Part shown: positions 34,284 through 62,529 of the stretch, in pieces
Layout: each line of letters starts with the position of its first letter
Numbering within the stretch: position 1 is the stretch's first letter
Assembly (NCBI GenBank): GCA_949282275.1
Contig: CASDOO010000006.1
Coordinates: 1 to 64,000 of the forward strand
Origin: an uncultured Bacillota bacterium
GTDB lineage: Bacteria > Bacillota_I > Bacilli_A > RFN20 > CAG-288
DNA length: 64,000 bases
Direction: 5' to 3'
Position numbers and translations under genes: made by a program
Notes under the pieces: generated by a model
Told to the model about the DNA's origin: nothing
The model's database searches: none
What the model saw: the letters and a program-made list of their open reading frames with translations, nothing else

Positions 34284-34760
34284 ATGCGACATATCTATGA
34301 TTTTCTGCGTTACAAGAACGTCGGTTACTTCTTCGGCCTTCTTGCCTTCCTTCTGACCATTGCCCAGGGCATCGTCTACATGTATGTCCCTGACAGCATC
34401 TTCAACATCCAGGTCGTCTTCCTCTGCCTTGTCGGAGCCGGACTCTTCCATCTCTTCTCCCTCTTCCCGAAGACGGCCGTCCTCGGCCCTGTCTTCCTCA
34501 TGGTCTGCGACTTCCTCTGCATCTGCGCCTTTGCTTCCGCCGACGGCATCATCGACTATCTTTCCACGGCCTTCTTCAGCGGATTCTCCTTCGAGGCCCT
34601 CTTCAGCCTGGATCAGCCGGTCTATCTGAGCATCATCTTCTTCATCGTTTCCTTCATCCTGTCGTCCATTGCCATGTATCTGCCGCAGACGAGAAGGACG
34701 CTTGGCGAGAAGCGCTTCGATCGTCTTGTCGACAATCTCAACCGCGGAGGTAAAGCCTGA
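34284..34760 (+). CDS. Small membrane protein, four helices
   Basis: 158 residues with about four hydrophobic segments (roughly 14-33, 44-62, 66-90, 113-137) and a basic C-terminus. No family recognised. The ATG at 34284 is preferred to 34275 because the AGGAGG at about 34268-34273 is too close to the earlier one. It overlaps the GH3 gene by one base (TGATG), so the two are tightly coupled and the protein may assemble with the GH3 enzyme. Confidence 0.75.
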   Translation: MRHIYDFLRYKNVGYFFGLLAFLLTIAQGIVYMYVPDSIFNIQVVFLCLVGAGLFHLFSLFPKTAVLGPVFLMVCDFLCICAFASADGIIDYLSTAFFSGFSFEALFSLDQPVYLSIIFFIVSFILSSIAMYLPQTRRTLGEKRFDRLVDNLNRGGKA

Positions 34761-42113: not shown

Positions 42114-43826
42114 TTACTGCTTTGTTTTTTCTTCGGCGCTTTCGGCAGCAGGTGTTTCTTCACTTGTAGAGTTGGGATCGGATGAGGGGCAATCTATTGT
42201 TGATTCTTCGTCCGTGTCCTTCTGCTCTTCATCTTCTTTCTTTTCTTCGGTAGTCTCTGCTGTGACAGGCACGATGGAGGCCGATGTGTCTTCCGTTCCG
42301 TCGGCAAGGACAGGGATTCCCTTCTTGGCTTTGATGTAGCCATAGCTTGCCAGGATGACGGAAGAGAGGAGGTAGCCAAGAATCAATCCCGCAGCGGCAC
42401 CGAGGAAGGAGGACATTTCACCGTCGGTGACGAACTTGGAAGAATCCGAATAGGTAATGGCAAGGGGCTTGGAGGAATAGAGAATGTTGTAGACCTCATT
42501 GGCTTCTTCAAGGGACTGATCCAGCCTTTCAACGTAGGCATCCATCTCGGAGACGAAGGCAAGGCAATTCTCACGCCACTGGATGTCGTCTTCCGACGTG
42601 CCAAGCAGATGTTGGATGGCGCCGTTGTCAAGGGCGGGGTCATAGTTTTCGTCCGTAGGAAGATAGAACTCGACAGCGTAGTAGAAGGACTGACTTTCGT
42701 CGGCAATGGTGCGGTAGCCCAAGGATGTCAATTCTGCGAGGATTTCCTGTTGTCTTTGCAAATGGGTGGTGTATTGCGTCATGTATTGCGTATATTGATC
42801 CTGCATGGAGCTGGAAGCCGTACCGCTTTCGATGGAAGGACGAAGACCATTGAGACCTTCGAAGGCGATGGCCATGGAACGGGAAGTGTCGTCAAGACGC
42901 CTTGTCAGGATGGAACCGTTTCTTATGCAAGAATTGACTGCCGAGCTGATATTGCTTTCCGAGAAGCGGACGTAGTTGAAGAGATCGGCTTCATCTTGCA
43001 GATCTTGGAAGATCGTTCCGCTGCTACCGTTTTGGGAAGCGTATTCCGCACGGAAGCCATTGTTGTAGACTTCTCGGAGTATCTGGCCTTCGTTTACTTC
43101 CGTCGTCGACTCGAACTGGTCGAGCAATTCCGTATAGAGGGAGTCGATGGCCTGATATTGCGTGATCAATTCCCCGAGAAGCGAAGAAGGGGTCAGGCTC
43201 GTGTAATTGGTTGGAATGTTGGAAATGAGGTGATTGGTGGGAATCTTGGAGATGGCCTCGTCATAGGTGCTTTGGATAAGGGCTTCGACGAAGGCAGAGA
43301 CATTTTCGGTGGAACCGAAGGCGCCTGTCGAACAGGTTATGACGTATTGGAAGCTTCCTCTGTCAGCCGTGACGCTTTCGCCATTGGCGTTTGTCGTCGT
43401 ATCGAGACGGATGCTGATGGCGTTGTCCTCCACGATTTCCTTTGCGTCCAGGAAGGAGAATATAAGATTTCCTTCCTCATCCTTCGTGTTTTCGATGACC
43501 TTTTCGATATTGGAAGAGGAGATGATGTCATACATGGAATAGGAGGAGCCATCGAGATACTCGATTTCGGTCGTGGAATTGTTGCTATCCCGAGTGACTG
43601 TCAAGGGTAATTCGAGACGGACATGGGCCGTGCTGACGGCATGGCCGGGATTCCACCATAAGGAAATCAGAAGATAGCCGATGATGGCGAATACCAACGT
43701 GATTCCGAGAATCCAGTATTTGAAAACATAGACGAAATGGCAATAATCGCTCCAGGTGAAGTGTCTTTTTCCATCGTCATCGTCGTTCTTGAAGATGATG
43801 ACCTGATTGTTTTCTTTGGGATCCAT
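42114..43826 (-). CDS. Wzz-type polysaccharide chain-length determinant
   Basis: 570 residues. Two membrane helices, at about 35-57 and about 478-505 (GAAAGLILGYLLSSVILASYGY), bracket a long extracellular helical domain, the polysaccharide co-polymerase layout. It sets chain length with the Wzy polymerase encoded upstream. The C-terminal tail of about 65 residues is very acidic, and no tyrosine-kinase domain or Tyr cluster follows. AAGGAGG precedes the ATG. Last gene of the minus-strand part of the locus. Confidence 0.82.
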   Translation of the reverse strand: MDPKENNQVIIFKNDDDDGKRHFTWSDYCHFVYVFKYWILGITLVFAIIGYLLISLWWNPGHAVSTAHVRLELPLTVTRDSNNSTTEIEYLDGSSYSMYDIISSSNIEKVIENTKDEEGNLIFSFLDAKEIVEDNAISIRLDTTTNANGESVTADRGSFQYVITCSTGAFGSTENVSAFVEALIQSTYDEAISKIPTNHLISNIPTNYTSLTPSSLLGELITQYQAIDSLYTELLDQFESTTEVNEGQILREVYNNGFRAEYASQNGSSGTIFQDLQDEADLFNYVRFSESNISSAVNSCIRNGSILTRRLDDTSRSMAIAFEGLNGLRPSIESGTASSSMQDQYTQYMTQYTTHLQRQQEILAELTSLGYRTIADESQSFYYAVEFYLPTDENYDPALDNGAIQHLLGTSEDDIQWRENCLAFVSEMDAYVERLDQSLEEANEVYNILYSSKPLAITYSDSSKFVTDGEMSSFLGAAAGLILGYLLSSVILASYGYIKAKKGIPVLADGTEDTSASIVPVTAETTEEKKEDEEQKDTDEESTIDCPSSDPNSTSEETPAAESAEEKTKQ

Positions 43827-43895: not shown

Positions 43896-44909
43896 TCAAA
43901 GATTGCGATAGCGCTCCATCCACTTTCGGTATTCGCCGTTTTCGACATGACGGAGCCATTCCTGGTTTTCGAGATTCCAGCGGATCGTTTCGGCAATGCC
44001 GGTTTCGAAATCATATTCTGGTTTCCAGCCAAGTTCCTGTTCGATTTTGTTCGTGCAAAGGGCATAGCGTCTATCATGGCCCAGACGGTCCTTGACGTGC
44101 ACAATCAAGGCGTTGTCTTTTTTGAGGGTTTTCAGAATCGTTTCGACAATCTGGATGTTGCTTCTTTCGATATGTCCGCCGACATTATAAATCTCTCCGT
44201 CTCTTCCTTTTCTGACGATAAGATCGATGGCTCGGCAGTGGTCGAAGACATGCAGCCAATCCCTTATATTCCTGCCATCACCATAGACAGGAAGCCTTTC
44301 GTTCCTTCTGGCCTTCTGTACCATGAGGGGAATCAGTTTTTCCGGGAATTGATAGGGCCCATAGGTATCCGATGCCCTGGAAATGGTGACGTTCAAACCA
44401 TAGGTACGATGATATGCCAGGACAAGCAGGTCGGCCGATGCTTTCGAGGCCGCATAGGGAGAGGAACCTTTGATGGGAGATGATTCAGTAAACGAATCCG
44501 TCGAATCCAATGGAAGGTCACCATAGACTTCGTCGGTCGAGACTTGATGGAATCGTTTGATTCCGAATTTCCGACAGGCATCCAGCAGGACCGAGACTCC
44601 TATCATGTTTGTTTCAAGGAATATTCGGGGATTGTCGATGGATCTGTCGACATGGCTTTCGGCAGCAAAGTTGATGACGATGTCGAACCTTTCCTCATCG
44701 AAGAACTTGTCGACAAAGTCCCTGTCGCGGATATCGCCTTTGACGAAACGGAAATTCCCAAGGCCAAGAATGGGATCGAGCGTTTCCATGTTTCCGGCAT
44801 AAGTGAGCGCGTCGAGGCATACGAAATGGTCCTGAGGATACTTCTTTGTCATGATATGGAGGAAGTTTCCTCCGATAAAGCCTGCGCCGCCTGTGATTAG
44901 AAAATTCAT
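43896..44909 (-). CDS. rmlB: dTDP-glucose 4,6-dehydratase
   Basis: Makes dTDP-4-keto-6-deoxyglucose for deoxy sugars such as rhamnose. 337 residues: NAD motif GGAGFIGGNF (about 7-16), VDRSIDNP, catalytic Y-x-x-x-K in SPYAASKAS (about 150-158), and a C-terminal SDR-extended domain. The other rml genes are not in the window. Overlaps the preceding glycosyltransferase gene by 4 bp. Confidence 0.94.
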   Translation of the reverse strand: MNFLITGGAGFIGGNFLHIMTKKYPQDHFVCLDALTYAGNMETLDPILGLGNFRFVKGDIRDRDFVDKFFDEERFDIVINFAAESHVDRSIDNPRIFLETNMIGVSVLLDACRKFGIKRFHQVSTDEVYGDLPLDSTDSFTESSPIKGSSPYAASKASADLLVLAYHRTYGLNVTISRASDTYGPYQFPEKLIPLMVQKARRNERLPVYGDGRNIRDWLHVFDHCRAIDLIVRKGRDGEIYNVGGHIERSNIQIVETILKTLKKDNALIVHVKDRLGHDRRYALCTNKIEQELGWKPEYDFETGIAETIRWNLENQEWLRHVENGEYRKWMERYRNL

Positions 44910-45982
44910 AAAAGAGAACTCGAATATATTTTTTCCAATGAAGCAATCATGGTTTTCATATCAAACTTGGCTGAATAATGATTTTGATGCTCATAGTGAT
45001 GGGAAAGAGTAGAAATTTTATCAATCCATTTTGCTTTGTCTAAAGGAAGGAAAATAGAACTGCCAATATTTGATTCCGTGGTTATTGTGTCTGAGGCAAA
45101 ACAAATCAACCCCGATGATTGTGCCTCGACCAGTGAAAAAGGAAGACCTTCGTATTCGGAAGGAAGAACAAAGAAATCAAATGCCGAATAGTAATTCTCG
45201 ATATCTTCTTGGGGTGGGAGGAATATGACTCTTTCTTTCGTGTTGTCGCTGATTGGCAGAGAATGGAGATAGTCGTTTTCGGAAGACCCTATACATAACA
45301 GATGGTAATTTGATGGAAGCTCATTGAGTACTTGAATGGAAAAGGCCTGATTCTTTTGAGGACAAATGCGACCGACTTGGCCAAGCAGTATGTCGTTTTC
45401 TTCAAGACCTAGAGATGAACGAATTCTGTTTCTTTCGGAAATATTGAACCTGAAACGATCGAAATCCATTCCGTTATACACTGTGGTGAAGTTTTTTCTT
45501 TTGAAAAGCGAAATACCGGCCATATCTGAGCAGGCGAGGCGGACATTTGCCTTGTTCTTCCCAAAAGCATAAAGAATCGAGTTTCGAATCCTATGCGAAA
45601 AAACATCTGCGAGACGGGTCGCATGGGAATGGAGAATCCGTATGGGAACACGAGTCTTTTTTGATAGACCGAGATAGAGGAAGGCCATATTTGGGAGGTT
45701 GCAATGGACGGCGTCATACTGCTTTTGCCTTAAAAGGGAGAGAAACTGCTTTCTCAGGTTAATGAAATTCTTATACTTCAAGGTGCCAAAGTAATAAATG
45801 GAATCATTGTTTTCTTCGATTGTCTTTTTATAATCAGGGGCCAACTGGGGTTTATGAACCAAAAAATCAATTGAGAACAAGTCATGATTGATATTCCGAT
45901 AGACGTTCATGGCAAAGGTGCAAACACCATCGGAATGGTTCATTCCGGGGATGATCATCAATATTTTTTTCTTGCTAGTCAT
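44906..45982 (-). CDS. Family 4-type glycosyltransferase (GT-B)
   Basis: 358 residues. N-terminal GT4-like domain (ILMIIPGMNHSDGVCTFAMN) and donor-site region with VGRICPQKNQ (about 209) and FFVLPSEYEGLPFSLVEAQSSGL (about 270-292), including the E-x7-E motif. Cytoplasmic, adds one sugar to the repeat unit. More AT-rich than the housekeeping genes of the window. An AGGG lies 11 nt before the ATG. Confidence 0.9.
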   Translation of the reverse strand: MTSKKKILMIIPGMNHSDGVCTFAMNVYRNINHDLFSIDFLVHKPQLAPDYKKTIEENNDSIYYFGTLKYKNFINLRKQFLSLLRQKQYDAVHCNLPNMAFLYLGLSKKTRVPIRILHSHATRLADVFSHRIRNSILYAFGKNKANVRLACSDMAGISLFKRKNFTTVYNGMDFDRFRFNISERNRIRSSLGLEENDILLGQVGRICPQKNQAFSIQVLNELPSNYHLLCIGSSENDYLHSLPISDNTKERVIFLPPQEDIENYYSAFDFFVLPSEYEGLPFSLVEAQSSGLICFASDTITTESNIGSSIFLPLDKAKWIDKISTLSHHYEHQNHYSAKFDMKTMIASLEKIYSSSLL

Positions 45983-45988
45983 TTGGCA

Positions 45989-46801
45989 TCAATCCCTTAG
46001 GAATTTCGTATAGATCAGTTTTCGTATGAAATTCGGAGACAAAGACACAACGAGGCTCGCAATGGAAGACTTGAGGAATTGGCCAAAAGACATGAATCCA
46101 ATTCTCCTGAAATGGTGTTTGAGTTTCAAAATGCTCTTGCAATATTTCCACCCTCCGCGTCGTTTGTAGAAATCCAAGCTGGTCCTCATAAACACGAGAT
46201 TGTCCTGAATGTTATAGCAAGGAATGTCTGCCATTATGAATCGAGACCACAATTCGTAGTCCTCGCATAAATGCCAACTTTGATAGTTGCCGACAGTCAA
46301 AACATCTGCACGATAGAACATTGTTGAAGGGGCGATGAAAGGATTTCTTGTCCGGGAATACTCACGAATTTCTTCGTTGGTCTCGGGCATCTTTCGCTTC
46401 GAGACAACATTGTCTATGGAATCGATGAATTCTATTGTGTTGGAACCGACAAAGCGAATTTCCGGATGGCTTTCCAAAAAGGATAGCTGTTGTTCAAATC
46501 GTGTCGGACATGCGATATCATCCGAGTCCATGCGCGCAATCAAATCGCATTGGCAGTTCTCTACGCCTAATTTCAATGCCAATCCCAACCCTTGATTCTG
46601 CTTTGTCTGGATAGTTTTGATAAAGGGGTATTCTTTCATATATGTATCCAGAACTTTTTTTTGAGCATCGGTAATAGGCCCATCTTGGACAATGACGAGC
46701 TCATCCGGAGCAAGAGTTTGGTCGACTATGCTTTGTATTGCTTGCGCAAAGAAATCGGGATTGTCTTTGATATAGACTGCCATCAAACAGGAAATTGTCA
46801 T
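45989..46801 (-). CDS. Family 2 glycosyltransferase
   Basis: 270 residues. N-terminal GT-A domain: SCLMAVYIKDNPDFF, VIVQDGPI, ARMDSDDIACP (the D-x-D at about 92-96) and a C-terminal extension with HLCEDYELWSR. Transfers a sugar in repeat-unit assembly. No ribosome site. An extended -10 (TGCTATACT) lies 6 nt before the ATG, suggesting a leaderless transcript starting here. Confidence 0.9.
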   Translation of the reverse strand: MTISCLMAVYIKDNPDFFAQAIQSIVDQTLAPDELVIVQDGPITDAQKKVLDTYMKEYPFIKTIQTKQNQGLGLALKLGVENCQCDLIARMDSDDIACPTRFEQQLSFLESHPEIRFVGSNTIEFIDSIDNVVSKRKMPETNEEIREYSRTRNPFIAPSTMFYRADVLTVGNYQSWHLCEDYELWSRFIMADIPCYNIQDNLVFMRTSLDFYKRRGGWKYCKSILKLKHHFRRIGFMSFGQFLKSSIASLVVSLSPNFIRKLIYTKFLRD

Positions 46802-46807
46802 GATTTA

Positions 46808-46816
46808 AGTATAGCA
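46808..46816 (-). promoter_or_regulatory. Extended -10 before the glycosyltransferase at 46801
   Basis: Minus-strand TGCTATACT, 6 nt before the ATG. Preceded by GTTG as in the promoter of the S4 gene. Confidence 0.45.
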
Positions 46817-46911
46817 CAACGAAGCGCGCTTAATGAGACGGGATGGGATTCCAATGAATCTACGAAGAAGCAAAGGGAAAGACTTGGTTTGAAGAAGACA
46901 GCCTCGATTCT

Positions 46912-48090
46912 TTAGAAAAAGAACTGATATGGCAAAGGATCGAATGTGTTGTTCAGAATGCTTTGGGCAATAAAAATCAAACATAAATATCCGGCAATAC
47001 ATATTATAAGTGCGTTGTAGCGGATGCTGCCTTGCCTGAGAGCGACAGTCGTGCTTTGAAAAGGAAAATTAACATGGAAATTGCGGAGAATATCAAAAGC
47101 GCTTTGAGGCAGTTTCTCGCAGTTTTTCTGCATTAGGTCACATAGATAAGGAATCAGAACGATATCAAAGCCTGAGACGATTCTATAGGTTCGGATGAAC
47201 AGTTCTCCATTGCCGGTCATCAGGTTTAGAAGGAGACAATAAATAACGAACAATTTGAAGACCAAAAAGATATTGAGGATTCTATTGAAATTGAATTTGG
47301 ACTTATAGATTGCAAAGCCGGTGACAATAAGTTCATATGGAATCGTCACGAACTGTTTTGTTTCTATTTCATAGCCGGACATATCGAAAAAGTAACCGTA
47401 TTTCGTATAGGAGGTGACAAAGAACTTAAGCAGTTGCAGAAGGATAGGAGAAATAATGACCGCCAAAAAGAAAAGGAAAATGAACGTTTTTCTTTTCAAA
47501 TGAATGAAAAGATAATAGAACAAGAAAACCCAGTAAATCAGACAGGAAAGATGGAAGAGAGGGGTAATCAAAATAAAGATAACTCCAATGAACTTTTTTG
47601 GAGATTTTCCAAACCACAATAGTGCAAATCCCAGCAAGGCAAGAGCAAAACCGCAGGCTTGCCTTATGTTCGAAAGAGTCCAGAAATATGTGGAGGTAAA
47701 CAGAAAAATCAAAAGCGAGAAAGTGATATTTCTTCCTCTAATGAATATGGCAAGAACTATTGGAATCAAAACGATAAAAGAAGTGACAATGAAGAAAAAC
47801 TGCGGGAAAAGCTGGAAGCGATACATGATCGTCAGGATAAACTGAAAGAATATTTCAGTGTCTGGAATGCTTCCTTTCAGTGAGCTTTCGATCATGGGCA
47901 TATAAGTGTAGCTGTAATCCATGCCGACGTCATAGCGCAAAGCGCTGACGAGCAAGAGGGGCAGCAACACGCCCAAAAAGCAAGCCACAGTCTTAAAAAT
48001 ATGATTTCTGCCAAACTGCTTTCTTTTGATGGCAATATCCGTCAATAAAGAGGAAAGTAAGGAAAAAGAAAAAGCAATAAAATAAATCAT
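46912..48090 (-). CDS. EpsG-like polysaccharide polymerase (Wzy)
   Basis: 392 residues with about ten or eleven membrane helices. DVGMDYSYTYMP (about 54-65) and a later FIRTYRIVSGFD match the EpsG/Wzy pattern, where extracellular loops join repeat units. It would work with the Wzx flippase and Wzz here. TATAAT lies 10 nt before the ATG with no ribosome site. Divergent from the plus-strand glycosyltransferase. Confidence 0.82.
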   Translation of the reverse strand: MIYFIAFSFSLLSSLLTDIAIKRKQFGRNHIFKTVACFLGVLLPLLLVSALRYDVGMDYSYTYMPMIESSLKGSIPDTEIFFQFILTIMYRFQLFPQFFFIVTSFIVLIPIVLAIFIRGRNITFSLLIFLFTSTYFWTLSNIRQACGFALALLGFALLWFGKSPKKFIGVIFILITPLFHLSCLIYWVFLFYYLFIHLKRKTFIFLFFLAVIISPILLQLLKFFVTSYTKYGYFFDMSGYEIETKQFVTIPYELIVTGFAIYKSKFNFNRILNIFLVFKLFVIYCLLLNLMTGNGELFIRTYRIVSGFDIVLIPYLCDLMQKNCEKLPQSAFDILRNFHVNFPFQSTTVALRQGSIRYNALIICIAGYLCLIFIAQSILNNTFDPLPYQFFF

Positions 48091-48134
48091 GATATAATCA
48101 ATTATACTTTATCTGACACTTAGGGGAAACATTG

Positions 48135-49160
48135 ATGAAACTTCTCACGATTTCCATTGCGGCATATAATGCCGAAGAATATTTGGCAAATTGCCTAGAG
48201 TCGTTGGTTAAATCAAAATTTCTGAATGAAATAGAAATAATCGTCGTCAATGATGGGTCGAAAGACAACACCAAGGATATTGGCGAAGAGTACGCAAGAA
48301 AATATCCTTATTCAATTTGCGTCATCAATAAAGAAAATGGTGGTTATGGATCGACAATAGAAGCGTCACTTTCCCGTGCAACGGGGAAATATTTCAAGCT
48401 CTTGGATAGTGATGATTATTTCTCAACGGAAGGGCTGGATGCCTTGATATCCAAGCTGGCGGAAAGCGAAGCTGACACAGTCATTACAAAAACCGTTGTC
48501 TTTCGGGATGGAAAACATCAATCCGGCTGGAAATACGGAAGTGATTTGATTTTTGACGGCAAGGAGCATGATATTCCTCAGAACTATGACTTGAGTTTGA
48601 CCATGCATTCTCTTTGCTTTCGAACTTCCTCGCTAAGGGATTATGGCCAAAGGAATCTTTTCCCAAAACACTGCCTATATACCGATGCCCTGTTTTCTTT
48701 CCTCGGCTTGTTCCATTCAAGAAGCTATGTCGCTTTGGACTTCCCAGTCTATTTTTATTGGGTTGGAAGACCGAATCAGAGTGTTGATCTCAAAGTGAGT
48801 CTTAAACACAATTCGGATCGCCTTCATGTTATCGAAAGTATCTTTGGTTTATTGAGAGATCAAGCATTGCCAAATATCTTTGCCACGGGCGTACTCAGTT
48901 TCCTTTTAAGAGACTATATGGCAATGGTTTTGTCTCTCCAGTCTTTTAAAGAAGCTTTTGAACAAAAAACAAAGCTTATAAAGCAACTCTCTGAATATGA
49001 AGAGATTGTCGAACAACTGAAAAAGCGGAACGCCCAATGTGAAAAGGTCTTCAAAACAATCTATGCTTCCAAAAATTACTTCTTGTTCCTTTGGATTGCG
49101 AAACACATAAAGAAGAATCGAGTGACGATTTTTGTTAAAGAACGGATTCTCGGGAAATAG
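48135..49160 (+). CDS. Family 2 glycosyltransferase
   Basis: 341 residues. GT-A domain: LLTISIAAYNAEEYL, EIIVVNDGSKDNT, and the D-x-D in KLLDSDDYFS (about 93-102). The C-terminal part has a helical extension ending in basic residues. AGGGG lies 8 nt before the ATG at 48135. Leads the plus-strand half of the locus (glycosyltransferase, Wzx, LicD). Confidence 0.9.
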   Translation: MKLLTISIAAYNAEEYLANCLESLVKSKFLNEIEIIVVNDGSKDNTKDIGEEYARKYPYSICVINKENGGYGSTIEASLSRATGKYFKLLDSDDYFSTEGLDALISKLAESEADTVITKTVVFRDGKHQSGWKYGSDLIFDGKEHDIPQNYDLSLTMHSLCFRTSSLRDYGQRNLFPKHCLYTDALFSFLGLFHSRSYVALDFPVYFYWVGRPNQSVDLKVSLKHNSDRLHVIESIFGLLRDQALPNIFATGVLSFLLRDYMAMVLSLQSFKEAFEQKTKLIKQLSEYEEIVEQLKKRNAQCEKVFKTIYASKNYFLFLWIAKHIKKNRVTIFVKERILGK

Positions 49161-49189: not shown

Positions 49190-50749
49190 ATGAATTCCAT
49201 TTTTGCGAAAAAGGATAAGGGCAACAAGCAAAACCTAAAATTGAATGTCATATTCAATGCGATTTATCAAGTTCTTATCTTGATAGTTCCTTTAATAACG
49301 ACTCCTTATATTTCGACCGTTTTTACTTCGGATATTGTTGGTTCTTATTCTTATGCGTACTCCTTTACCCAGTATTTTACTTTGTTTGCCGACTTCGGAT
49401 TTACAATGTATGGAACGACTCTTTTGGCTAAAGTTCGAGGCGAAAAGGAAAAGGAAGACAATGCCTTCTGGGGAATAATGTACTGCAAGATAATCTTGGA
49501 TGTCTTTATTTTGATGATTTATTTTTCCCTGGTTTTCGGGGACGTGTTCTTTGATAAAAACTATCCTCTGAACGACAATACGGTTTATTTGTGTTTTTCC
49601 TTGGCGATTGTCTCCTATCTCTTCGATACGACGTTTCTTTTCCAGGGGAAGGAGAAGTTCGTCAATCTTTGCATACGAAACCTTTTCGTCAAAATCCTGT
49701 CTACCATTTTGATTTTTGTTTTGGTTCGTGATGCGGACGATTATTTGACATATGTTCTCATCATGTCGATTTCGCTCTTTCTTTCCGGTTTCATTACCTT
49801 TGTCAGCACGCCCTTTATCATCGGGAAACCGAAGAAAGTTCCGTTTGCCGATCTGAAAAAGCATTTCAAGGGATCTTTTATTTTCTTCATTCCAAGCATT
49901 GCGACGACCATATATACGGTCGCTTCCAAGACCATTTTGGGAGCCATTGGCGGCGATAGCGTTCAAAGCGGCTATTATGAGCAGGCGAACAAGATTGTCG
50001 ATGTCATTGTTGCCATCGTCAATTCGGTGAGCACCATCATGATGTCGCGGATGGCCTATCTCTATGCGAAAGGCAAATACGACGAAATAAGGACGAAAAC
50101 CAGAAAGATACTCCAGCTTTATTGTCTTTTGTCCTTGCCATGTTTCTTTGGTTTGTTTGCAATAAACGAATATTTGACGTTGGGATTCCTGGGAGAAAAT
50201 TTCGAAGGGTCCGTTGTCTTGATATACGTTTTGGCTCTTAAGATCATACTTATTCCAGGATCTGGTATCTTGGGCTCAATCTATTACATTCCGAACAATG
50301 AACTAAAAAAACGAAATATCTATTTGGTAACAGGCGCTATCGTCAACATTGTCGTCAACACGTTGTTGGTCTATTTTTTCTCGGCAATTGGCGCTGCCTG
50401 CGCTTCGGTTCTGACGGAATTCGTTGTCACGTTCCTTTACTGGTGGGGATGTCGGAAGGAATTGGACTTCAAGCCCTTATGGAAAGACTGGATTCTATGC
50501 TTCGATGCCGCCATCATCATGTTCATACTTTTGGTTGTGCTTAAAAGTCCGTCGTTGAGTCTTTCCGCTCTTCTCATGAATGCCATTGGTGTCTTTTCGG
50601 ATCGCGTCATCTATTTCATGGCGGCCGTATTCATGGTCGTGATTGGCGTTTTGATTTATGGCATTCTTATTCTGCTCTTCCGGGAGCCGTTTACCTTGGA
50701 ATTTGTCCGCAATATAAAAAACAAGATTGTTGCCAGGAGGCGAAAATGA
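49190..50749 (+). CDS. Wzx-type polysaccharide flippase
   Basis: 519 residues, about fourteen membrane helices, MATE/PST family: N-terminal SYSYAYSFTQYFTLFADFGF is typical of Wzx. Moves the undecaprenyl-linked repeat unit across the membrane. The ribosome site is weak. It overlaps licD by 4 bp. Confidence 0.9.
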   Translation: MNSIFAKKDKGNKQNLKLNVIFNAIYQVLILIVPLITTPYISTVFTSDIVGSYSYAYSFTQYFTLFADFGFTMYGTTLLAKVRGEKEKEDNAFWGIMYCKIILDVFILMIYFSLVFGDVFFDKNYPLNDNTVYLCFSLAIVSYLFDTTFLFQGKEKFVNLCIRNLFVKILSTILIFVLVRDADDYLTYVLIMSISLFLSGFITFVSTPFIIGKPKKVPFADLKKHFKGSFIFFIPSIATTIYTVASKTILGAIGGDSVQSGYYEQANKIVDVIVAIVNSVSTIMMSRMAYLYAKGKYDEIRTKTRKILQLYCLLSLPCFFGLFAINEYLTLGFLGENFEGSVVLIYVLALKIILIPGSGILGSIYYIPNNELKKRNIYLVTGAIVNIVVNTLLVYFFSAIGAACASVLTEFVVTFLYWWGCRKELDFKPLWKDWILCFDAAIIMFILLVVLKSPSLSLSALLMNAIGVFSDRVIYFMAAVFMVVIGVLIYGILILLFREPFTLEFVRNIKNKIVARRRK

Positions 50750-51657
50750 GCGAAAACACATTCGGATTTCAAATCAGCGAAAAGAGAAAGAAAATCTGGA
50801 AGGTCCAATTGGATCTCTTTGATGTTCTTTATTCCGTATGCCGGAAGCATGGCCTATCCCTTTTTGCAAGCGATGGTACCTTGCTTGGGGCGGTGCGTCA
50901 TAAGGGCTATATTCCATGGGATGACGACATGGACTTTATTCTCTTCCGGAAAGACTATCAGAAGCTTTGCGATGTCGCAAAGGAAGAGTTCCAGGATCCG
51001 TATTTCTTCCAGACGACATACACGGATAATCTTTTCCGCATCCACGCCCAACTCCGCAATTCCAAGACAACGGCCTTGATCCACGGAGATTATGCGACAC
51101 ATTTCAACCACGGCATCTTTATCGATATTTTCGTCTTGGACGGCATTCTGGAAGATGAAGCCGAAAGAAAAGAGGAGTTTTCCAAGGTCCGCAAGCTGAA
51201 GCAAAGGCTGTCTCATGCCAATGTCTCAAGGATAGGCGCCAAGAATCCTTTGAAGCGATTTGTCGGGAACTGCCTTTTGCCATTCGACAAACTTTATGTT
51301 TCGCTTCTTGGCGGCAAAGACAAGCTTCTGTCCGAAGTGGAGAAATATCTTGACCAAGAATGCAATGCGGAGACATGCGATCTTGTCGGCAATGTCATGT
51401 TCGACGACATAGCGGTCAAACCTTTCAGGAAGGAGTGGTTCTCCGAAACGATAATGCTCCCCTATGAGGACAGAATGATTCCTTGTCCCATCGGTTATGA
51501 TTCGATCTTGAAACAGGTCTATGGCGACTACATGACGCCCCAAAGAGCTCCATCGGCACATGGAGAGACTTTCTTTGATTTGGAAAACGGCTACCGGAAA
51601 TACGATGGACTAAGTCGAAAGGAATTCATCCGGCTCTTCGAGAAAATCGACTATTGA
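50746..51657 (+). CDS. licD: LicD-family phosphotransferase
   Basis: 303 residues. The LicD core is clear: ASDGTLLGAVRHKGYIPWDDDMDF, here in two parts (SDGTLLGA-RH about 41-51, then PWDDDMD about 57-63), the metal- and nucleotide-binding residues. LicD proteins transfer phosphocholine or a similar group from a CDP/CMP carrier to a glycan or teichoic acid. It overlaps wzx by 4 bp, so the acceptor is probably the polysaccharide made here. The stop codon abuts the stop of the convergent cytidylyltransferase fusion with no gap. Confidence 0.9.
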   Translation: MSENTFGFQISEKRKKIWKVQLDLFDVLYSVCRKHGLSLFASDGTLLGAVRHKGYIPWDDDMDFILFRKDYQKLCDVAKEEFQDPYFFQTTYTDNLFRIHAQLRNSKTTALIHGDYATHFNHGIFIDIFVLDGILEDEAERKEEFSKVRKLKQRLSHANVSRIGAKNPLKRFVGNCLLPFDKLYVSLLGGKDKLLSEVEKYLDQECNAETCDLVGNVMFDDIAVKPFRKEWFSETIMLPYEDRMIPCPIGYDSILKQVYGDYMTPQRAPSAHGETFFDLENGYRKYDGLSRKEFIRLFEKIDY

Positions 51658-54237
51658 TCAGAATTCTTCGTGTTTCGGATAATTGGCGTAGGAGTCGTCC
51701 AAGGCGACAAGCTCGCTGAAATTGTCGATTTCGACGATATCGGATTTGTGGCAGCTGCGGATCTCGACCTTGAACTTCTTTCGATAGGAACGGAAGACGA
51801 CGGCTTCCCAGAAATGTTCCTTTCCGGCACGGGAATGATAGACCTTCGGAAGATAGTAGCGTAGCTTTTCGGAGTCACTTTCGTTCCAGAAGGAAATGCC
51901 AAAGGCCTGATAACAGTCTTCGCCACCCATTTGATACTTGCCGACATAGCGCCCTTTTTTGAAGAAGCACCAATCATCGGTCTCGTTGACCTTGGCTCCC
52001 AAGTAGTTTGTCGTATATTCGTACTTCCGGATCAACTCCGGGTTGGAGATATAGAGGTCGGCTTCGCAGATATAGCAGGAATCGATATAGTCGATGGCCC
52101 GCATCATGGAGGAAATGTTGTTGGTCGTGTTGAACTCGGTATTGTCCAGGAAGGTAAGGGTCGGATACCTTTCCTTGAGATCGTCGAACTGGTTCTTCTT
52201 GTAGCCACGGACGATGACGATATCCGTGATTCCCTTTTCGATCAAGGCATCCAGCAGAGTCTCGATGATTCTCTTTCCATGGATTTTGACCAAGGGCTTT
52301 GGCGTTTCTAGGGTGACTGGTGCCATTCTCGAGCCAAAGCCGGCGGCGATGATGATTGCCCTTTTTACCCGATAGGGTTCCAAGGCCTTCAATCCCTGCT
52401 CCGTGAGGCTGATTCTTTTTTCCATGTCCACCTGGATAAAGGTCTGTTGGGAGAGATTCTTGATTTCCTTTAGCAAGGCGGAAACAGAGACTTTCAAATC
52501 GTCCGAGAGCTGACGCTGGTTGAATGAAACGGCTTCTCTTTTTTCAATGTAGGTAAGAAGATCAAACTGGAAACGTGTCAGGGCCATAATGTCTTTTTTC
52601 TCCTTTCCACTGGCTTTGTTGACAAAGTGACTAATGCAGGCGAAAGAAAACTTGGCAATGACGTTGATGGCAAGGATGACAAGGGAGATGACCGCCTGCA
52701 TCTCGTAATTGCCTGTCTTCTCATAGTTCGTAATCAAAACAGCCAAAGGCTGGTTGACATAGCGACAAAGGAAGGAAACGGCAGAGATAGTGACCATGGA
52801 ATTGACGAAGAAGTAGGAGAACATTTCAATCAGGGTGCTGATGGAATTCGGGACAAGCACACGGAAGAAGATACTGGTCCTTGAAAGTCCTAAAGATGCT
52901 CCGACCTGCTCATACTCCTTGTTCATTTTGGCAAAGCAGTCCCTGGCAAGGAGGTATGGTGAACCAAAGAAGTGAACAATGTTGACGACAACAAGGATTG
53001 CCATTGTCCCATAGAAGAAACCATGGGTTCCCTTGAAAAGTGTTATATATCCGATTCCAAGGACAATTCCGGGAATGGCAATCGAAGAAAGGGAGGCAAA
53101 GTGAATAAGTCTTCCTGTTTTTCCGGAAACCCTAGTAGTAAAATATGCCGTCAAATAGGAGAAGATAGTGCCGAAGATGCCGACCAAAAAGGCGATTTCC
53201 AGGGAATTGGCAAGATATCTTCCGATTCCTGGTCCATTTCTTGAGGCAAAGAGATTTGCGAAGTTGTCCAAGGTAAAGGACATGTCCGTCGGAAACTTCT
53301 TGAAGAAGGCAAGAAGGATGAACGAGAGCTGTGGTATGAAGAGGAGGAAGGCGACGAAGAAAATGCCGATTAGCGAAAGGATGTTGAAAAGCCGGGATGT
53401 CGTTTCCGAGGAAGGGGCATGCTCCTCAGAGGTGTTTTCTTTGGAAAGGATGTCCAGGACAAAAGAAGCAATTGCCGGAAGCAAAAGGAAGAAACCGACG
53501 ATTGCCGCCCTTCCGTATTCATATGTCGAGTTGATTTGTTCGTAGAGATACATCGGCAAGGTGTCGATGGTTCCGGCGACTTCCATCGGCAGACCATAGT
53601 CGGAGAAAATCAAGGACATCGATGCAAAGAAAGCGGAAATCAGGGGCGTTCTTAGATAGGGAATCGTAATGCCGAAGAATTGCCGTATTGGCGAAATGGC
53701 CATTGTCTTTGCCGCATCGTAGACCTGCCTGTTTTCATATTGGAGGGCGTCGTAGAGAATAAGGAAAGAGGTCGGAAAGGCCAGAACGATGGACGAAAGG
53801 ATCAACGAGTGAAAGCCAGTTGAATCAACGGCAATGCCGCACATTTGGTAAAGAAGGCCGGAAGTTCCTAGGAAAGTCTTAATGCCCAAACCTATCGAAA
53901 GGGAGGGCACAAGCATGGGCAAGGTAAGGATGAGGACGATGATTTTCTTGTATCGCACCTGGGCACGGCTAAGAAAATATGCCGTGAAAAGGGAAATGAG
54001 CACGGCAATCCCAGCGCCCAACATGCTGTAGAGAAGAGAATAGAGGATACTGAAATAGAATTTCCTATCGTGGAACATATAGACGAAATCATCGGCGGAT
54101 AGGGAAAAGAAGAGCGAGAGAAGAGGGGCCAGTGCAAAAATGGCAATCAAGGCGATGATTATCAGACGTATGTATTCCTTTTTAAGGAATCCCTTCGCGT
54201 GGCTGATAAAGGGACTTGCGGTCAGTTTGTTGATCAT
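51658..54237 (-). CDS. Fusion: ABC double permease - winged helix - LicC/PntC-like cytidylyltransferase
   Basis: 859 residues in one uninterrupted frame. Residues 1-545 form a duplicated permease of the Fe(III)/2-aminoethylphosphonate class with about twelve helices and two coupling loops (AKTMAISPIRQFFGITIPYL, about 195; GASLGLSRTSIFFRVLVPNS, about 457). Residues 551-620 are a winged-helix-like domain. Residues about 624-859 are a nucleotidyltransferase with AAGFGSRMAPVTLETPKPLVKI and, further on, CEADLYISNPEL, as in LicC and PntC. Met551 is preceded by AAAGGAG (12 nt away), so a separate 309-residue cytidylyltransferase may also be made from 52587. It follows the ATPase gene by 4 bp overlap. 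Confidence 0.9.
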   Translation of the reverse strand: MINKLTASPFISHAKGFLKKEYIRLIIIALIAIFALAPLLSLFFSLSADDFVYMFHDRKFYFSILYSLLYSMLGAGIAVLISLFTAYFLSRAQVRYKKIIVLILTLPMLVPSLSIGLGIKTFLGTSGLLYQMCGIAVDSTGFHSLILSSIVLAFPTSFLILYDALQYENRQVYDAAKTMAISPIRQFFGITIPYLRTPLISAFFASMSLIFSDYGLPMEVAGTIDTLPMYLYEQINSTYEYGRAAIVGFFLLLPAIASFVLDILSKENTSEEHAPSSETTSRLFNILSLIGIFFVAFLLFIPQLSFILLAFFKKFPTDMSFTLDNFANLFASRNGPGIGRYLANSLEIAFLVGIFGTIFSYLTAYFTTRVSGKTGRLIHFASLSSIAIPGIVLGIGYITLFKGTHGFFYGTMAILVVVNIVHFFGSPYLLARDCFAKMNKEYEQVGASLGLSRTSIFFRVLVPNSISTLIEMFSYFFVNSMVTISAVSFLCRYVNQPLAVLITNYEKTGNYEMQAVISLVILAINVIAKFSFACISHFVNKASGKEKKDIMALTRFQFDLLTYIEKREAVSFNQRQLSDDLKVSVSALLKEIKNLSQQTFIQVDMEKRISLTEQGLKALEPYRVKRAIIIAAGFGSRMAPVTLETPKPLVKIHGKRIIETLLDALIEKGITDIVIVRGYKKNQFDDLKERYPTLTFLDNTEFNTTNNISSMMRAIDYIDSCYICEADLYISNPELIRKYEYTTNYLGAKVNETDDWCFFKKGRYVGKYQMGGEDCYQAFGISFWNESDSEKLRYYLPKVYHSRAGKEHFWEAVVFRSYRKKFKVEIRSCHKSDIVEIDNFSELVALDDSYANYPKHEEF

Positions 54238-54998
54238 TGGATGCTCGATTGAATGAGACGGACTTTCTCGTCCAAGTTGTCGACGATGAACTCTTTGACG
54301 AAAGAGTTTGTGGGATTGTAGTAGATTTCCTTAGGTGTTCCTAACTGTTGGATTGAACCATCTTTCATCACCATGATGCGATCGGAGAGACTGAAAGCCT
54401 CCTCTTGATCGTGCGTGATATATATCATCGTCATTTTTCTCTCGATTTGTATTCTCTTGATAAGCTTGCGCAGGGCCATTTTGATATCCGTGTCTAGTGC
54501 CGACATTGGTTCATCGAAAAGAATGACATCCGGATTCAGGACTAGGGAACGTGCAATGGCGACCCTTTGCTGTTGTCCGCCGCTTAATTGCCTTGGCTTC
54601 TTGTTGATATGATCTTCCAGGGCGACATCCTTGACGATGCTTTTGACCTTTTCATCAATAGTGGCTTTGTCGATCTTTCGTGCCTTGAGGGCATAGGCGA
54701 TATTTTCATAGACCGACATGTTCGGGAACAGGGCATAGTTCTGGAAGACGATCCCCATGTTTCTTTGCTGGGGTGGGAGACGGGTTATGTCTTTGTTCTC
54801 TTTTGTTATCGTTCCGGAGTTCAGGAATTCGATTCCGATGAGACAGCGGAGCAAGGTTGTCTTTCCACATCCCGAAGGGCCAAGAACCGAAAGAAACTCT
54901 CCTTTGAAAATATCGAAGGAAATGCTATTGAGGACAATCTTGTTTCCATATTTTTTGAGAAGATTGTTGGCGATTATGATCTTGTTTTTGTATTCCAT
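54234..54998 (-). CDS. ABC importer ATPase, Fe(III)/AEP/polyamine class
   Basis: 254 residues: Walker A GPSGCGKTT (about 37-45), LSGGQQQRVAIARSLV (about 139-154), Walker B VILFDEPMSALD. Matches FbpC/PotA/PhnT-type ATPases. It pairs with the permease fusion (4 bp overlap) and the binding lipoprotein upstream (1 bp gap). Confidence 0.93.
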   Translation of the reverse strand: MEYKNKIIIANNLLKKYGNKIVLNSISFDIFKGEFLSVLGPSGCGKTTLLRCLIGIEFLNSGTITKENKDITRLPPQQRNMGIVFQNYALFPNMSVYENIAYALKARKIDKATIDEKVKSIVKDVALEDHINKKPRQLSGGQQQRVAIARSLVLNPDVILFDEPMSALDTDIKMALRKLIKRIQIERKMTMIYITHDQEEAFSLSDRIMVMKDGSIQQLGTPKEIYYNPTNSFVKEFIVDNLDEKVRLIQSSIQ

Positions 54999-54999
54999 A

Positions 55000-56013
55000 T
55001 CAATACTCCCAGGAATCCAGCAAATCCTTCTTATATTCAGGATCCTTCAAACCAATCATGCGGATTTCCGAAACGTTCGTTGGGTAATTCGGCGTCAAGG
55101 ATGGGGCTTGCTCAGCATAGATGACATCCGAGGTGAACCGGATAGTCTGTTCATAGTTTAGCTCGTCTGCCAGATACTCGAAGACCGAAGGTACGGCCTC
55201 TCTTTCTTGATGCCCTTCTACCATGCCCATGACAAAAAGGTTGTAGGGAGAGCCTTCCTCTGGAATGATGGTTTGGATATCTGGATTCTCGTTCGAATAC
55301 TGGATTCCCTGCCAAACCATTCCTATCGCAATTCCGATTTCTCCTCTTTCAAGGGCTTTGAGAGGCGCCGAACCCGAAGAGGTGAATTCGTTGATGTTTG
55401 GCCTTAACTGACGGAAATAATCCAGGGCCGCCTCTTTCCCAAGAAGGGAAACCATTCCGTTATAGAAACCATATCCTGTTCCACTCGACTTTGGATTCGG
55501 CATTTGAATGAGGTTGTTATATATGGGATTGAGCAAATCCTGGAAGCTTTTTGGAATTGGCACGTTATGTTGATCAAGGACACTTGTATTGATAACAATT
55601 CCCAGGTTTGTCTTGCAATCGACAATAAATCCATCTTCTATTGTCGTGATGTTGTTCACGGAATCAGCATAATCCGGTATGTTTTCGGAATAGGGCCCGA
55701 GGTCACATAGGATACTCGGCTCAATGCTCGATAGTTGTGCTCCGTTAGTAATGTCTACGTCATAAAATATGTCGCAATCGGAATAGGTTCCTTCGTTGGC
55801 GAGTTTTGTGTAGATCATGCTTGAGCCGACCGACTGGATGATAATTTCGTATTCCGGGAAACGATCGTATAATTGCTGGTAGAGATAGGTATTCCTTTCT
55901 TCCTCGGCCCCGGAATAGATCATGACGAAATTTTCTGTCGAGCAAGACGAAAGCGATGGGGACAGAAGCAAGGAAATCATAGCAATGGAAAGGAAAAAAC
56001 CATTTCTCTTCAT
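55000..56013 (-). CDS. Substrate-binding lipoprotein of the Fe(III)/2-aminoethylphosphonate class
   Basis: 337 residues. Signal peptide with lipobox LSSC. The N-terminal lobe begins VMIYSGAEEERNTYL, and the PNPKSSGTGYGFYNGMVSLLGKEAALDYF region is the hallmark of the ferric/AEP (PhnS) binding-protein family. It lacks an obvious Tyr-Tyr ferric-binding pair, though this needs alignment. The ATG at 56013 follows a good promoter by 10 nt and has no ribosome site. First gene of the importer operon. Confidence 0.88.
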   Translation of the reverse strand: MKRNGFFLSIAMISLLLSPSLSSCSTENFVMIYSGAEEERNTYLYQQLYDRFPEYEIIIQSVGSSMIYTKLANEGTYSDCDIFYDVDITNGAQLSSIEPSILCDLGPYSENIPDYADSVNNITTIEDGFIVDCKTNLGIVINTSVLDQHNVPIPKSFQDLLNPIYNNLIQMPNPKSSGTGYGFYNGMVSLLGKEAALDYFRQLRPNINEFTSSGSAPLKALERGEIGIAIGMVWQGIQYSNENPDIQTIIPEEGSPYNLFVMGMVEGHQEREAVPSVFEYLADELNYEQTIRFTSDVIYAEQAPSLTPNYPTNVSEIRMIGLKDPEYKKDLLDSWEY

Positions 56014-59995: not shown

Positions 59996-61033
59996 TTAGC
60001 TGTCCGTGACTTCCTCAAAGCCATCGAAGAGGAGGATATGTCGTATGCCTTCCCCTTCCTTTTTAAGATGGAAGAGAATGGCGACTTGGTCCTTGTCGAC
60101 AAGAATCATTAGGCTAAGGATGTCATCGTCCAAGCCTTCGAGAAGAACATTTGCCGGAAGGGGATTCTTTTCCGGAAGGAAGCGATAACTTGTCGTATCG
60201 CCATCCGTCTCCTTTTCGAAGAAGGCCGTAGAAAGCCGAAAAAGGCAATCAAGATCCTCTTTCCAATTCGTTTTCCGTTCAACGAATTCCCCTTGGACGA
60301 GGGATACGGCCGTTCTTTCGTCTTGGTAGAGACATTCCGGACCAGTCGGGATATCCTTTGGATTGGAGAAACGCCACGTTCGCATGGTTTCCAGGCCGGT
60401 GTCCATGTGGACGATATGCTCTTGCCTTGTGTAGCGAAAGCTCTTGAGTCTCTTCATCGTCTTGCGGAAAGAAGGATCGTCTATTTCCGGAAGAGGGGCA
60501 ACCTCGGGAAAAACGGCATTCTTTCCGAAGGCATCGATTCTAAGGAGAATGTGCATCGCTTTCCTTTCGGGGACGGAAATCCGGATATCGACGAGCAGAT
60601 TCTTGTTCTCGTCTTCCGTCAGGCGGAAGGAGAAATCCTTTTCGTCCAATGAGTCGGGGATATCGAAAAGGGCATTGAAGCGATAGGGGATGTCGTAAAG
60701 GAGGGCAGTGGAAAAGGGGAGGCGAAAATCCTCGCCGTCCTGGACGAAATCCTTCGCGGAAAGGCCTTTGAAAGGGTTGACGGTTCCGATTGGATGGACA
60801 GAGAGGCTTGCATCCTCTTTTTCGACTTTGTTCTCTGACGACAGGAAAAGACGGAAGACCTTGTCGTCATCTATGAAATAGAGGCCGTCCTGCGAACTGG
60901 ATCCGATCTGGACAAAGGCTCTCTTGCCGTCGTTTCCAAACAGGCCGATGGGATGGAAGGTGTCGTCCTGCTGGACGAAGACCGTGGAAAGGAAGGCTTC
61001 GGACAGGGCCGGAAGCAACCGGTCTAGTTCCAT
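59996..61033 (-). CDS. Unknown protein downstream of the O-antigen ligase-like gene
   Basis: 345 residues, soluble, no signal peptide. Beta-rich in appearance with recurrent short strands. No motif or family recognised. The start at 61033 has AAGGAG 8 nt upstream. It overlaps the preceding membrane-protein gene by 10 bp, so the two are co-expressed. Confidence 0.7.
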   Translation of the reverse strand: MELDRLLPALSEAFLSTVFVQQDDTFHPIGLFGNDGKRAFVQIGSSSQDGLYFIDDDKVFRLFLSSENKVEKEDASLSVHPIGTVNPFKGLSAKDFVQDGEDFRLPFSTALLYDIPYRFNALFDIPDSLDEKDFSFRLTEDENKNLLVDIRISVPERKAMHILLRIDAFGKNAVFPEVAPLPEIDDPSFRKTMKRLKSFRYTRQEHIVHMDTGLETMRTWRFSNPKDIPTGPECLYQDERTAVSLVQGEFVERKTNWKEDLDCLFRLSTAFFEKETDGDTTSYRFLPEKNPLPANVLLEGLDDDILSLMILVDKDQVAILFHLKKEGEGIRHILLFDGFEEVTDS

Positions 61034-62493
61034 GCCTTTCTCCTTTCCGGAACAGTCATAATCCCTGACGTTGCAAGGATAGGCAGGAAATAGATGAGGA
61101 TGAAGAGGATAGAGGAGACATCGTCCAGGAAGAGGAAGCGAGGCTCCGACAGGGCATAGCATCCCTGCATAATGGCAAGAAGAAGAAAGAAAAGCCCGGC
61201 ATCCTTTCTCCTGAGGAAGATCTTCCAGCAGAGGAAGAGGACAAAGAAAATGCCAAGCAGGACGAAAAGCGAGCCAAGGATTCCGTAATGAAGAAGGACT
61301 TCCGCAAAGCCATTGTGGGAGTTGAGGATTGAAAGCGTCGGATCGTTTCGGTAGATGGAGAAGATGTTCGTGAAGGGGACGCGGGAATAGCCAAAGACAA
61401 GAAAGAAGGGATAGGCAAGCGTCGACAGGGCCTGACGGACGATCGTAAGCCGATGTCCTAGTGTTTGCGTATCAAAGACCTTTGCCACCAATTCGGCAAA
61501 GAAGGAAGAGAAGTCACCGTCGCAGAGGATTCCGATGACGGAAACGGCGATGACGACCTCCAGGATGAAGAAGGACCAAAGGAGGATTGCCATGGCCTTT
61601 TTCCTTCGGATAAAGAAGAAGGGCTCAAAAAGGAGGAAGAGCGTGAAGGAGCAGACGAGGAGATAGACGACGGTTCGGCTATAAAGGGGAATGGAGAAAA
61701 GGAACAGGAGGGTCATGGTCAAGAAAGCGAAGAACGATTTGTCCCAGACAAAAAGAATCATGGCGGCCATGAAGCCCAGGAAGACGAGAAAGCCGAAAAC
61801 GTTCCTGTTGGTGGTGAAGGAAACGATGTTGGGCCCCTGAATTTCCTCAAGACCGATAAGATAGCGCATGGAATGAAGAATGGAGTCCATTTCAATTACC
61901 ATGGAATAAATAATGGCAACATAGACGAAAAGAATGTAGAAAACGAGAACGAATTTAAGAAACGTCACGAAATATTTTCCGAAAGTTGGAACAAAAAGGA
62001 TGGCAATGAGGAAATAGGACATTAAGAAAGCATCCGACAGGATGGAATTGAATCTTTGGTATATCGTGAAGCCGGAATAGAGGACGGAACTTTCCGTTCC
62101 TTCATAGGAAAAGCTTAGGGACAGTTCGCCATAGGGAAAAGAAAAGACGGAGATGGTCCGGACAAGAAGGAAGGAAACAAAGACAATCAGGCAGAAAAGG
62201 ATTTTCTTTCGCGGGACCATCCGGTAGCGATCGCGGATCAAGAAGAAGGACAAGCAGAAAAGGATGGGAAGAAGGACAAAGAAAATCTCGGGATTGAGCG
62301 GCTCCTTGAAATTGACGTCGATACCCATCGTCGCAAAAGAGGAGGCGTTTTGGGAAAGAAGGGATATCCGTCCGGACGAAAGCAGGGGAAGGAAAAGCGT
62401 CAGGAGAAGGAGATAGGCTATATCGAAAAGGTCTTTTCGGGAGGGCAGCATCGGAAAGGCGATCTTCTTCAATCGAAATGAAAAACAAGGCAT
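61024..62493 (-). CDS. O-antigen ligase / Wzy-like membrane protein
   Basis: 489 residues, about twelve helices and a large extracellular loop (about 320-380, with RLTIVRQALSTLAYP and a NSHNGFAEVLLHYGILGSLF segment) typical of the WaaL/Wzy_C family. It joins or polymerises lipid-linked glycans. The ATG at 62493 is chosen because a promoter (TTGTTT, 17 nt, TATCAT) ends 7 nt before it and no ribosome site supports the earlier ATG at 62529. Confidence 0.75.
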   Translation of the reverse strand: MPCFSFRLKKIAFPMLPSRKDLFDIAYLLLLTLFLPLLSSGRISLLSQNASSFATMGIDVNFKEPLNPEIFFVLLPILFCLSFFLIRDRYRMVPRKKILFCLIVFVSFLLVRTISVFSFPYGELSLSFSYEGTESSVLYSGFTIYQRFNSILSDAFLMSYFLIAILFVPTFGKYFVTFLKFVLVFYILFVYVAIIYSMVIEMDSILHSMRYLIGLEEIQGPNIVSFTTNRNVFGFLVFLGFMAAMILFVWDKSFFAFLTMTLLFLFSIPLYSRTVVYLLVCSFTLFLLFEPFFFIRRKKAMAILLWSFFILEVVIAVSVIGILCDGDFSSFFAELVAKVFDTQTLGHRLTIVRQALSTLAYPFFLVFGYSRVPFTNIFSIYRNDPTLSILNSHNGFAEVLLHYGILGSLFVLLGIFFVLFLCWKIFLRRKDAGLFFLLLAIMQGCYALSEPRFLFLDDVSSILFILIYFLPILATSGIMTVPERRKAWN

Positions 62494-62500
62494 AAAAGCA

Positions 62501-62529
62501 ATGATAGGAGATTGCAAGGCGGAAAACAA
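62501..62529 (-). promoter_or_regulatory. Promoter of the ligase-like gene, leaderless type
   Basis: TTGTTT (62524-62529), 17 nt spacer, TATCAT (62501-62506), 7 nt before the chosen ATG. Confidence 0.5.

Follow-up and report, generated by a model that had tools for sequence, protein, structure and literature searches.

A three-gene operon at the end of a polysaccharide locus in an uncultured Bacillota bacterium (contig CASDOO010000006.1, positions 1 to 64,000; this whole stretch is called the window) is best read as a module that would salvage and activate a small amino-phosphonate, most likely 2-aminoethylphosphonate (AEP), with LicD-type transfer to a surface polysaccharide; we put the probability of this at about 0.55. 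The operon encodes a lipoprotein substrate-binding protein (SBP), an ATP-binding cassette (ABC) transporter ATPase and a single chain that joins a permease, a winged helix and a cytidylyltransferase. Extracellular AEP would be captured by the lipoprotein and carried inward by the permease with its ATPase, the permease-tethered cytidylyltransferase would couple it to cytidine monophosphate (CMP), trapping it as CMP-AEP, and the LicD-type transferase would move the AEP group to the surface polysaccharide. The fusion would thereby link import to activation metabolically. An internal start at Met551 may in addition yield the cytidylyltransferase as a separate protein. The features are as follows.

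55000..56013, minus strand: lipoprotein SBP of the AEP/organophosphate class, 337 amino acids (PF13343 (SBP_bac_6) 3e-17; profile against PDB, AlphaFold2 model, Foldseek, tree)
54234..54998, minus strand: ABC transporter ATPase, 254 amino acids (ABC_tran 2e-35; best NCBIfam model PhnT2, below cut-off)
51658..54237, minus strand: fusion gene, 859 amino acids, with a two-module permease (~1-545), a winged helix (~551-621) and a LicC/PntC-like cytidylyltransferase (622-859) (Pfam BPD_transp_1 and NTP_transferase, NCBIfam, PDB profiles, alignments)
52603..54237, minus strand: PhnU2/AepW-type permease part of the fusion (TIGR03262 1.7e-90 across residues 25-541; permease tree)
52375..52587, minus strand: winged-helix part of the fusion, starting at Met551 (weak CggR_N match; alignments)
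52600..52606, minus strand: Shine-Dalgarno-like AAAGGAG marking a candidate internal start, 12 nucleotides (nt) upstream of the codon for Met551 (52587-52585)
51658..52374, minus strand: cytidylyltransferase domain, pocket E725 and E811 (LicC D105 and D192) (1jyk LicC 3.4e-26, 6pd1 PntC 2.2e-11)
50746..51657, plus strand: LicD-family phosphotransferase, convergent with the fusion (PF04991 3e-44)
49190..50749, plus strand: polysaccharide flippase, 4-nt overlap with licD (Polysacc_synt 8e-23)
43896..49160, strand unassigned: polysaccharide locus with RmlB-like dehydratase, glycosyltransferases and EpsG-type polymerase (Pfam)

The SBP, ATPase and fusion genes form one tight minus-strand operon (4-nt overlap, 1-nt gap); licD converges on the fusion, their stop codons abut, and licD and the operon together sit at the end of the polysaccharide locus. 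Pfam and NCBIfam agree on the parts (SBP_bac_6; ABC_tran; BPD_transp_1 with NTP_transferase; LicD). The SBP reading frame has a possible alternative upstream start (TTG 56196), and ATG 56013 yields a lipoprotein signal ending LSSC. The initial annotation had described a binding lipoprotein, an ATPase and a permease with a fused LicC/PntC-like domain, abutting licD at the locus end, and this description is confirmed, coordinates included. Its reading of these genes as import, activation and transfer is well supported for the first two steps, with the operon conserved in 11 fused and 6 unfused examples, and more weakly for the third.

Searching 23 genomes of the family, 279 of the order and 392 of the phylum recovers the triple fusion in 11 genomes, the window's among them, the other 10 carrying full-length homologues at 49-67% identity (six of the carriers recur as L033-L038, on identical contigs, and were counted once). 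An assembly error is rejected by this number of carriers. The SBP and ATPase genes adjoin the fusion in all 11, although in L107 a contig end cuts the SBP gene, and a further six genomes hold the same operon as four separate genes in the same order, giving 17 module loci. A permease tree gathers the 11 fused sequences into a single clade (100/100) within these 17, so the fusion probably happened once. An AlphaFold2 model of the entire fusion was too poor for use (predicted local distance difference test score, pLDDT, 63). Among the listings of open-licence papers searched, we recognised neither a permease-LicC fusion nor a bacterial phosphocholine importer. Each part belongs to a known kind; what appears to be new within that literature is the triple fusion with the physical coupling it brings, the idea of salvage, and the ribosome-binding-like site ahead of the fused enzyme.

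By sequence, the module importer nests among AEP-catabolic importers. The permease tree (34 rows) unites all 17 module importers (100/99); their sister group is a pair of phnWX-linked importers (99/97), and a larger clade adds phnWAY/phnWX-linked importers (100/99); regulator-linked and other importers fall outside. An SBP tree (29 rows) is concordant (100/98, then 98/96, with the module clade itself at 87/96). The truncated L107 SBP was left out of set A3 and of the SBP tree, and for the G527 module both trees use L109 in place of the partial L108 copies. The phnWAY/phnWX-linked importers in the trees are from Proteobacteria, and in a sister operon from the window's own phylum both PhnW and PhnX clear the NCBIfam cut-offs. 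On a Mammaliicoccus plasmid the genes run in the same order, ATPase-permease-SBP-phnW-phnX; the best plasmid matches of the permease are annotated AEP permeases, and both loci inspected adjoin phnW, phnA and phnY. Judged by operon order and annotation, these plasmid systems would be of the AepXVW type, an AEP transporter by experiment (PMC8316502). The module shares with AepXVW the families of SBP, ATPase and fused two-module permease as well as the nested phylogeny, but where AepXVW is linked to phnWX or phnWAY the module is linked to a cytidylyltransferase, fused to its permease, and sometimes to licD (PMC8316502). No phnW, phnX or phnWAY was recognised in the 17 module loci, a search of the loci and not of the window genome itself.

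The SBP profile ranks AfuA/VcA0625 hexose-phosphate and P5PA pyridoxal-phosphate binders first (AfuA/P5PA types 5e-41 to 3e-34), then HptA-like and AEP binders, and finally ferric binders (5e-10 or weaker). Foldseek with the SBP model (pLDDT 90.8) returns the same top group, hexose-phosphate binders included, but ranks ferric binders above the AEP binder STM0429. The phosphate-anchor residues are S64, S177-G178-T179 and S213, with the P5PA phosphate contacts conserved. E37 is acidic in 16/16 module SBPs and in 5/6 of the AEP-annotated SBPs aligned, and not in regulator-linked ones. The sugar ligands H205/D206 of AfuA become W234/Q235 in the window, with Q in 16/16 module SBPs. AfuABC and P5PA organophosphate importers (PMC4546632, PMC8427247) provide the nearest solved binding proteins and common phosphate-anchor residues, differing in the His-Asp pair with which AfuA binds sugar.

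The profile of the cytidylyltransferase matches LicC at 4e-44, PntC at 3e-19 and sugar enzymes at 9e-13 or weaker, aligning full-length with S. pneumoniae LicC, more weakly with T. denticola PntC and only in part with sugar enzymes. Neither of the contrary outcomes raised in the initial annotation is seen: the SBP groups with organophosphate/phosphonate binders, not ferric-iron binders, and the nucleotidyltransferase has its full-length alignment with LicC, not with sugar enzymes. Conserved metal ligands are present at the positions of LicC D107 and E216. For E216 this role is described (PMC6697681). Within a tree and pocket table of 37 rows (the motif search missed the L101 fused domain and 5/24 cluster members), the pocket pair of the window enzyme is Glu/Glu (E725/E811) and not the LicC-type Asp/Asp (D105/D192); the AEP-specific T. 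denticola PntC likewise has a Glu pair (E104/E196; PMC6697681). Glu occupies the D105 position in 17/17 ABC-linked rows, and the D192 position only in the window and G001. Where the locus encodes a BCCT choline-family transporter, the homologue is Asp/Asp in 2/3 rows, the third being a divergent paralogue. Pnt phosphonate tailoring resembles the module in this PntC-like Glu pair and in the chemistry predicted for the module, in which a phosphonate destined for surface glycans is activated with CMP; it differs in that no pepM was found in the fused genomes and in that the module enzyme is fused to an importer, Pnt's to Ppm or an AEP transaminase (PMC6697681).

Known surface-phosphonate pathways begin with pepM, whereas the role known for AEP importers is to supply catabolism. 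The earlier argument, that a window free of pepM implies a scavenged group, extends beyond the window, since pepM is found in 0/11 fused genomes. Together with the importer phylogeny and the pocket residues, this favours imported AEP over phosphocholine as the predicted cargo. Of 20 examined genomes with this cytidylyltransferase, 5 carry pepM. A pepM-linked role of orphan cytidylyltransferases was considered and discarded: 5/6 phylum-draw pepM genomes carry the family, but they represent two genera only, their Ppm already carries a cytidylyltransferase domain in fusion (observed in L154), and the association is gone in the order. Five class-level genomes (L154-L158) have an AEP biosynthesis operon comprising a PhnW-type transaminase, phosphonopyruvate decarboxylase and a cytidylyltransferase-Ppm fusion (NCBIfam on L154).

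LicD is the likely transferase of the module. It scores 152 bits against PF04991 (cut-off 22.6); of the NCBIfam models a cholinephosphotransferase comes nearest, short of its cut-off. LicD occurs in 108/279 genomes of the order, at 19/26 with the cytidylyltransferase family vs 89/253 for the others (P=2e-4, relatedness uncorrected), in 7/11 with the importer module (P=0.08) and in 12/12 with pepM, and in 9/9 class-level genomes examined. It was not found in 4/11 order-level importer genomes (G001, G122, G170 and G120), three of which are <90% complete.

Several observations weigh against AEP or against the transfer step. The adjacency of licD, whose conservation the initial annotation had proposed as a check, is uncommon: licD is adjacent to the operon or one gene away in only 4/17 loci (the window, G075, G527 and G524), and ~7 kb away in G511. 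Transfer by LicD is supported by its excess with the cytidylyltransferase family and weakened by this scatter and by the four importer genomes in which it was not found. LicC-like Asp stands at position 192 in the other 15/17 ABC-linked rows. The best NCBIfam matches of the importer (PhnS2, PhnT2 and PhnU2) are all below equivalog cut-offs (124/393, 327/458 and 304/593 bits), as are those of the phnWX-linked sister SBP and permease against PhnS2 and PhnU2. Klebsiella PhnS, an AEP-annotated binder, lies outside the clade on a long branch of the SBP tree. Across the order set, pepM and the cytidylyltransferase family co-occur no more than expected by chance (1/12 pepM genomes). The window genome is 84% complete, making absences soft. 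Finally, nine homologues linked to a choline/ethanolamine-kinase protein form the sister group of the window cytidylyltransferase clade (100/97), and 9/9 of them have the Glu/Glu pocket. Such a kinase makes O-phosphates, so no other observation argues as strongly for phosphoethanolamine or a derivative over AEP; with the activating enzyme retained, importer and kinase seem to have replaced one another as the supply route.

The foremost alternative, which we regard as possible though considerably less probable than AEP, retains the import-activate-transfer logic for an O-phosphate whose amine is primary or N-substituted, with phosphoethanolamine the foremost candidate, whose import in phosphorylated form would replace the kinase step. 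Beyond the kinase-linked sister clade, an octopine-dehydrogenase gene overlaps the end of the permease-cytidylyltransferase fusion at L100 (4425-5549), where it immediately follows that gene in G001. A kinase-linked homologue carries this domain as a fusion partner, with LicC-like cytidylyltransferases joined to it at L114 (9400-11280) and L117 (1-1801; Pfam run on L114 only). Octopine-dehydrogenase-type enzymes require a primary or secondary amine, and these links point to an alkylatable amine, disfavouring choline. The nesting of the importer among AEP-catabolic relatives argues the other way, and phosphoethanolamine is a poor substrate of S. pneumoniae LicC, though that is a different enzyme (PMC6697681). 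Between the phosphonate and phosphocholine offered initially, importer phylogeny and pocket favour AEP, which we would rate at a little over one half as cargo, with related O-phosphates at about one third.

Less likely is a kinase-free Lic-1 pathway, in which phosphocholine would be imported directly, made into cytidine diphosphate-choline and placed on the polysaccharide by LicD. LicC is indeed the closest solved relative, its aromatic box is largely kept in the window enzyme, and the nearest model of LicD, below cut-off, is a cholinephosphotransferase. A. rimae PntC has the aromatic box too (PMC6697681), so the box is not diagnostic for choline; the BCCT-linked Asp/Asp rows contrast with Glu/Glu in the window; and the window genome, at its 84% completeness, has only a sub-cut-off match to the choline kinase LicA, though this reading requires none. 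Compared with the licABCD phosphocholine pathway (PMC10434233), the AEP module we favour shares a LicC-like cytidylyltransferase and LicD; it differs in the Glu/Glu pocket, in having neither LicA kinase nor LicB and in a cargo that would already bear phosphorus on arrival. Most importer genomes do give choline-kinase matches, but these resemble generic phosphotransferases (~270-380 amino acids) and were set aside.

It is improbable that the importer serves phosphorus or carbon nutrition, its cytidylyltransferase fusion and closeness to licD having no joint function: its relatives do serve AEP catabolism and licD adjacency is uncommon, but 17/17 importers of the clade are fused to or then followed by a cytidylyltransferase, and phnW/phnX were not recognised in these 17 loci. 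A ferric-iron or hexose-phosphate importer with a sugar nucleotidyltransferase is more improbable still, the shared fold and Pfam families and the hexose-phosphate binders among the top fold matches being outweighed by the far lower profile scores of ferric binders, the replaced AfuA His-Asp pair and the partial matches of sugar enzymes.

Met551 of the fusion aligns with the start of the unfused homologues. The Met is kept in 10/11 fused genes (L099 is the exception), and a ribosome-binding-like site precedes the fused enzyme in 10/11. Pairing upstream of Met551 with the anti-Shine-Dalgarno tail is the strongest among internal Met codons in 8/10 genes and second in 2/10. A synonymous-recoding test of the same upstream stretch gives P <0.05 in 5/10 genes (range 0.0004-0.61; window 0.086), although 6/10 genes in these tests are close relatives, and the tests are thus not independent. 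The site may be left over from the time when the gene stood alone, or it may be functional and give free enzyme too.

Of the six carriers with public records, three are titled after rumen or yak-omasum projects (RUG14536, RUG14566 and RGIG9670). AEP was reportedly first isolated from rumen protozoa, in a 1959 study. It has also been measured in sheep rumen (PMC11839056), so an AEP source exists in the habitat of several carriers. We tentatively propose, as somewhat less than an even chance, a dedicated salvage route for surface phosphonoglycans, in which bacteria unable to form C-P bonds take up AEP released by other organisms and immediately lock it up as CMP-AEP through the importer's built-in cytidylyltransferase, with the internal start freeing a soluble copy of the enzyme and at least some carriers living in the rumen. 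Bacteria could then wear phosphonates they did not make, through an AEP-class importer physically joined to a CMP-activating enzyme, and phosphonate-bearing polysaccharides might be predicted in pepM-free genomes. The C. difficile flagellin glycan bears AEP in a pepM-negative species, and its authors could not say whether the AEP is taken up (PMC8861647); if correct, our proposal makes the origin of that AEP testable. The fusion itself is a single-gene reagent for import-coupled activation assays.

A second module (L108 2351-5029, L110, L111, L113-L118 and L120) encodes the choline/ethanolamine-kinase protein with its own nucleotidyltransferase, a LicC-like enzyme (sometimes fused) and an Amidohydro_3 protein; some loci add octopine-dehydrogenase or ornithine-cyclodeaminase-like genes, and L115 is without the kinase. 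It perhaps makes N-carboxyalkyl ethanolamine-phosphate decorations. In genome G527 (L108, L109) the kinase and importer modules both lie within ~20 kb of one polysaccharide locus. At L129, L136 and L137 a class V aminotransferase stands beside a protein that fuses CTP_transf_like to GFO_IDH_MocA, and both licD and a LicC-like gene are close by; these genes may form a CDP-amino-polyol pathway. Reading a CTP_transf_like protein as Ppm is rejected, since Pfam gives GFO_IDH_MocA as its partner.

Elsewhere in the window, whose source is described as a gut-type bacterium, long open reading frames without a Pfam match lie at 42114-43826 and 61024-62529, the latter resembling a multi-membrane-helix protein of the O-antigen polymerase/ligase kind. 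Positions 34760-38029 encode a GH3-type glycosidase whose C-terminal Pfam domain (86-380) precedes the N-terminal one (779-904), and 38047-41436 a large, likely surface-exposed protein with Big_2 immunoglobulin-like repeats.

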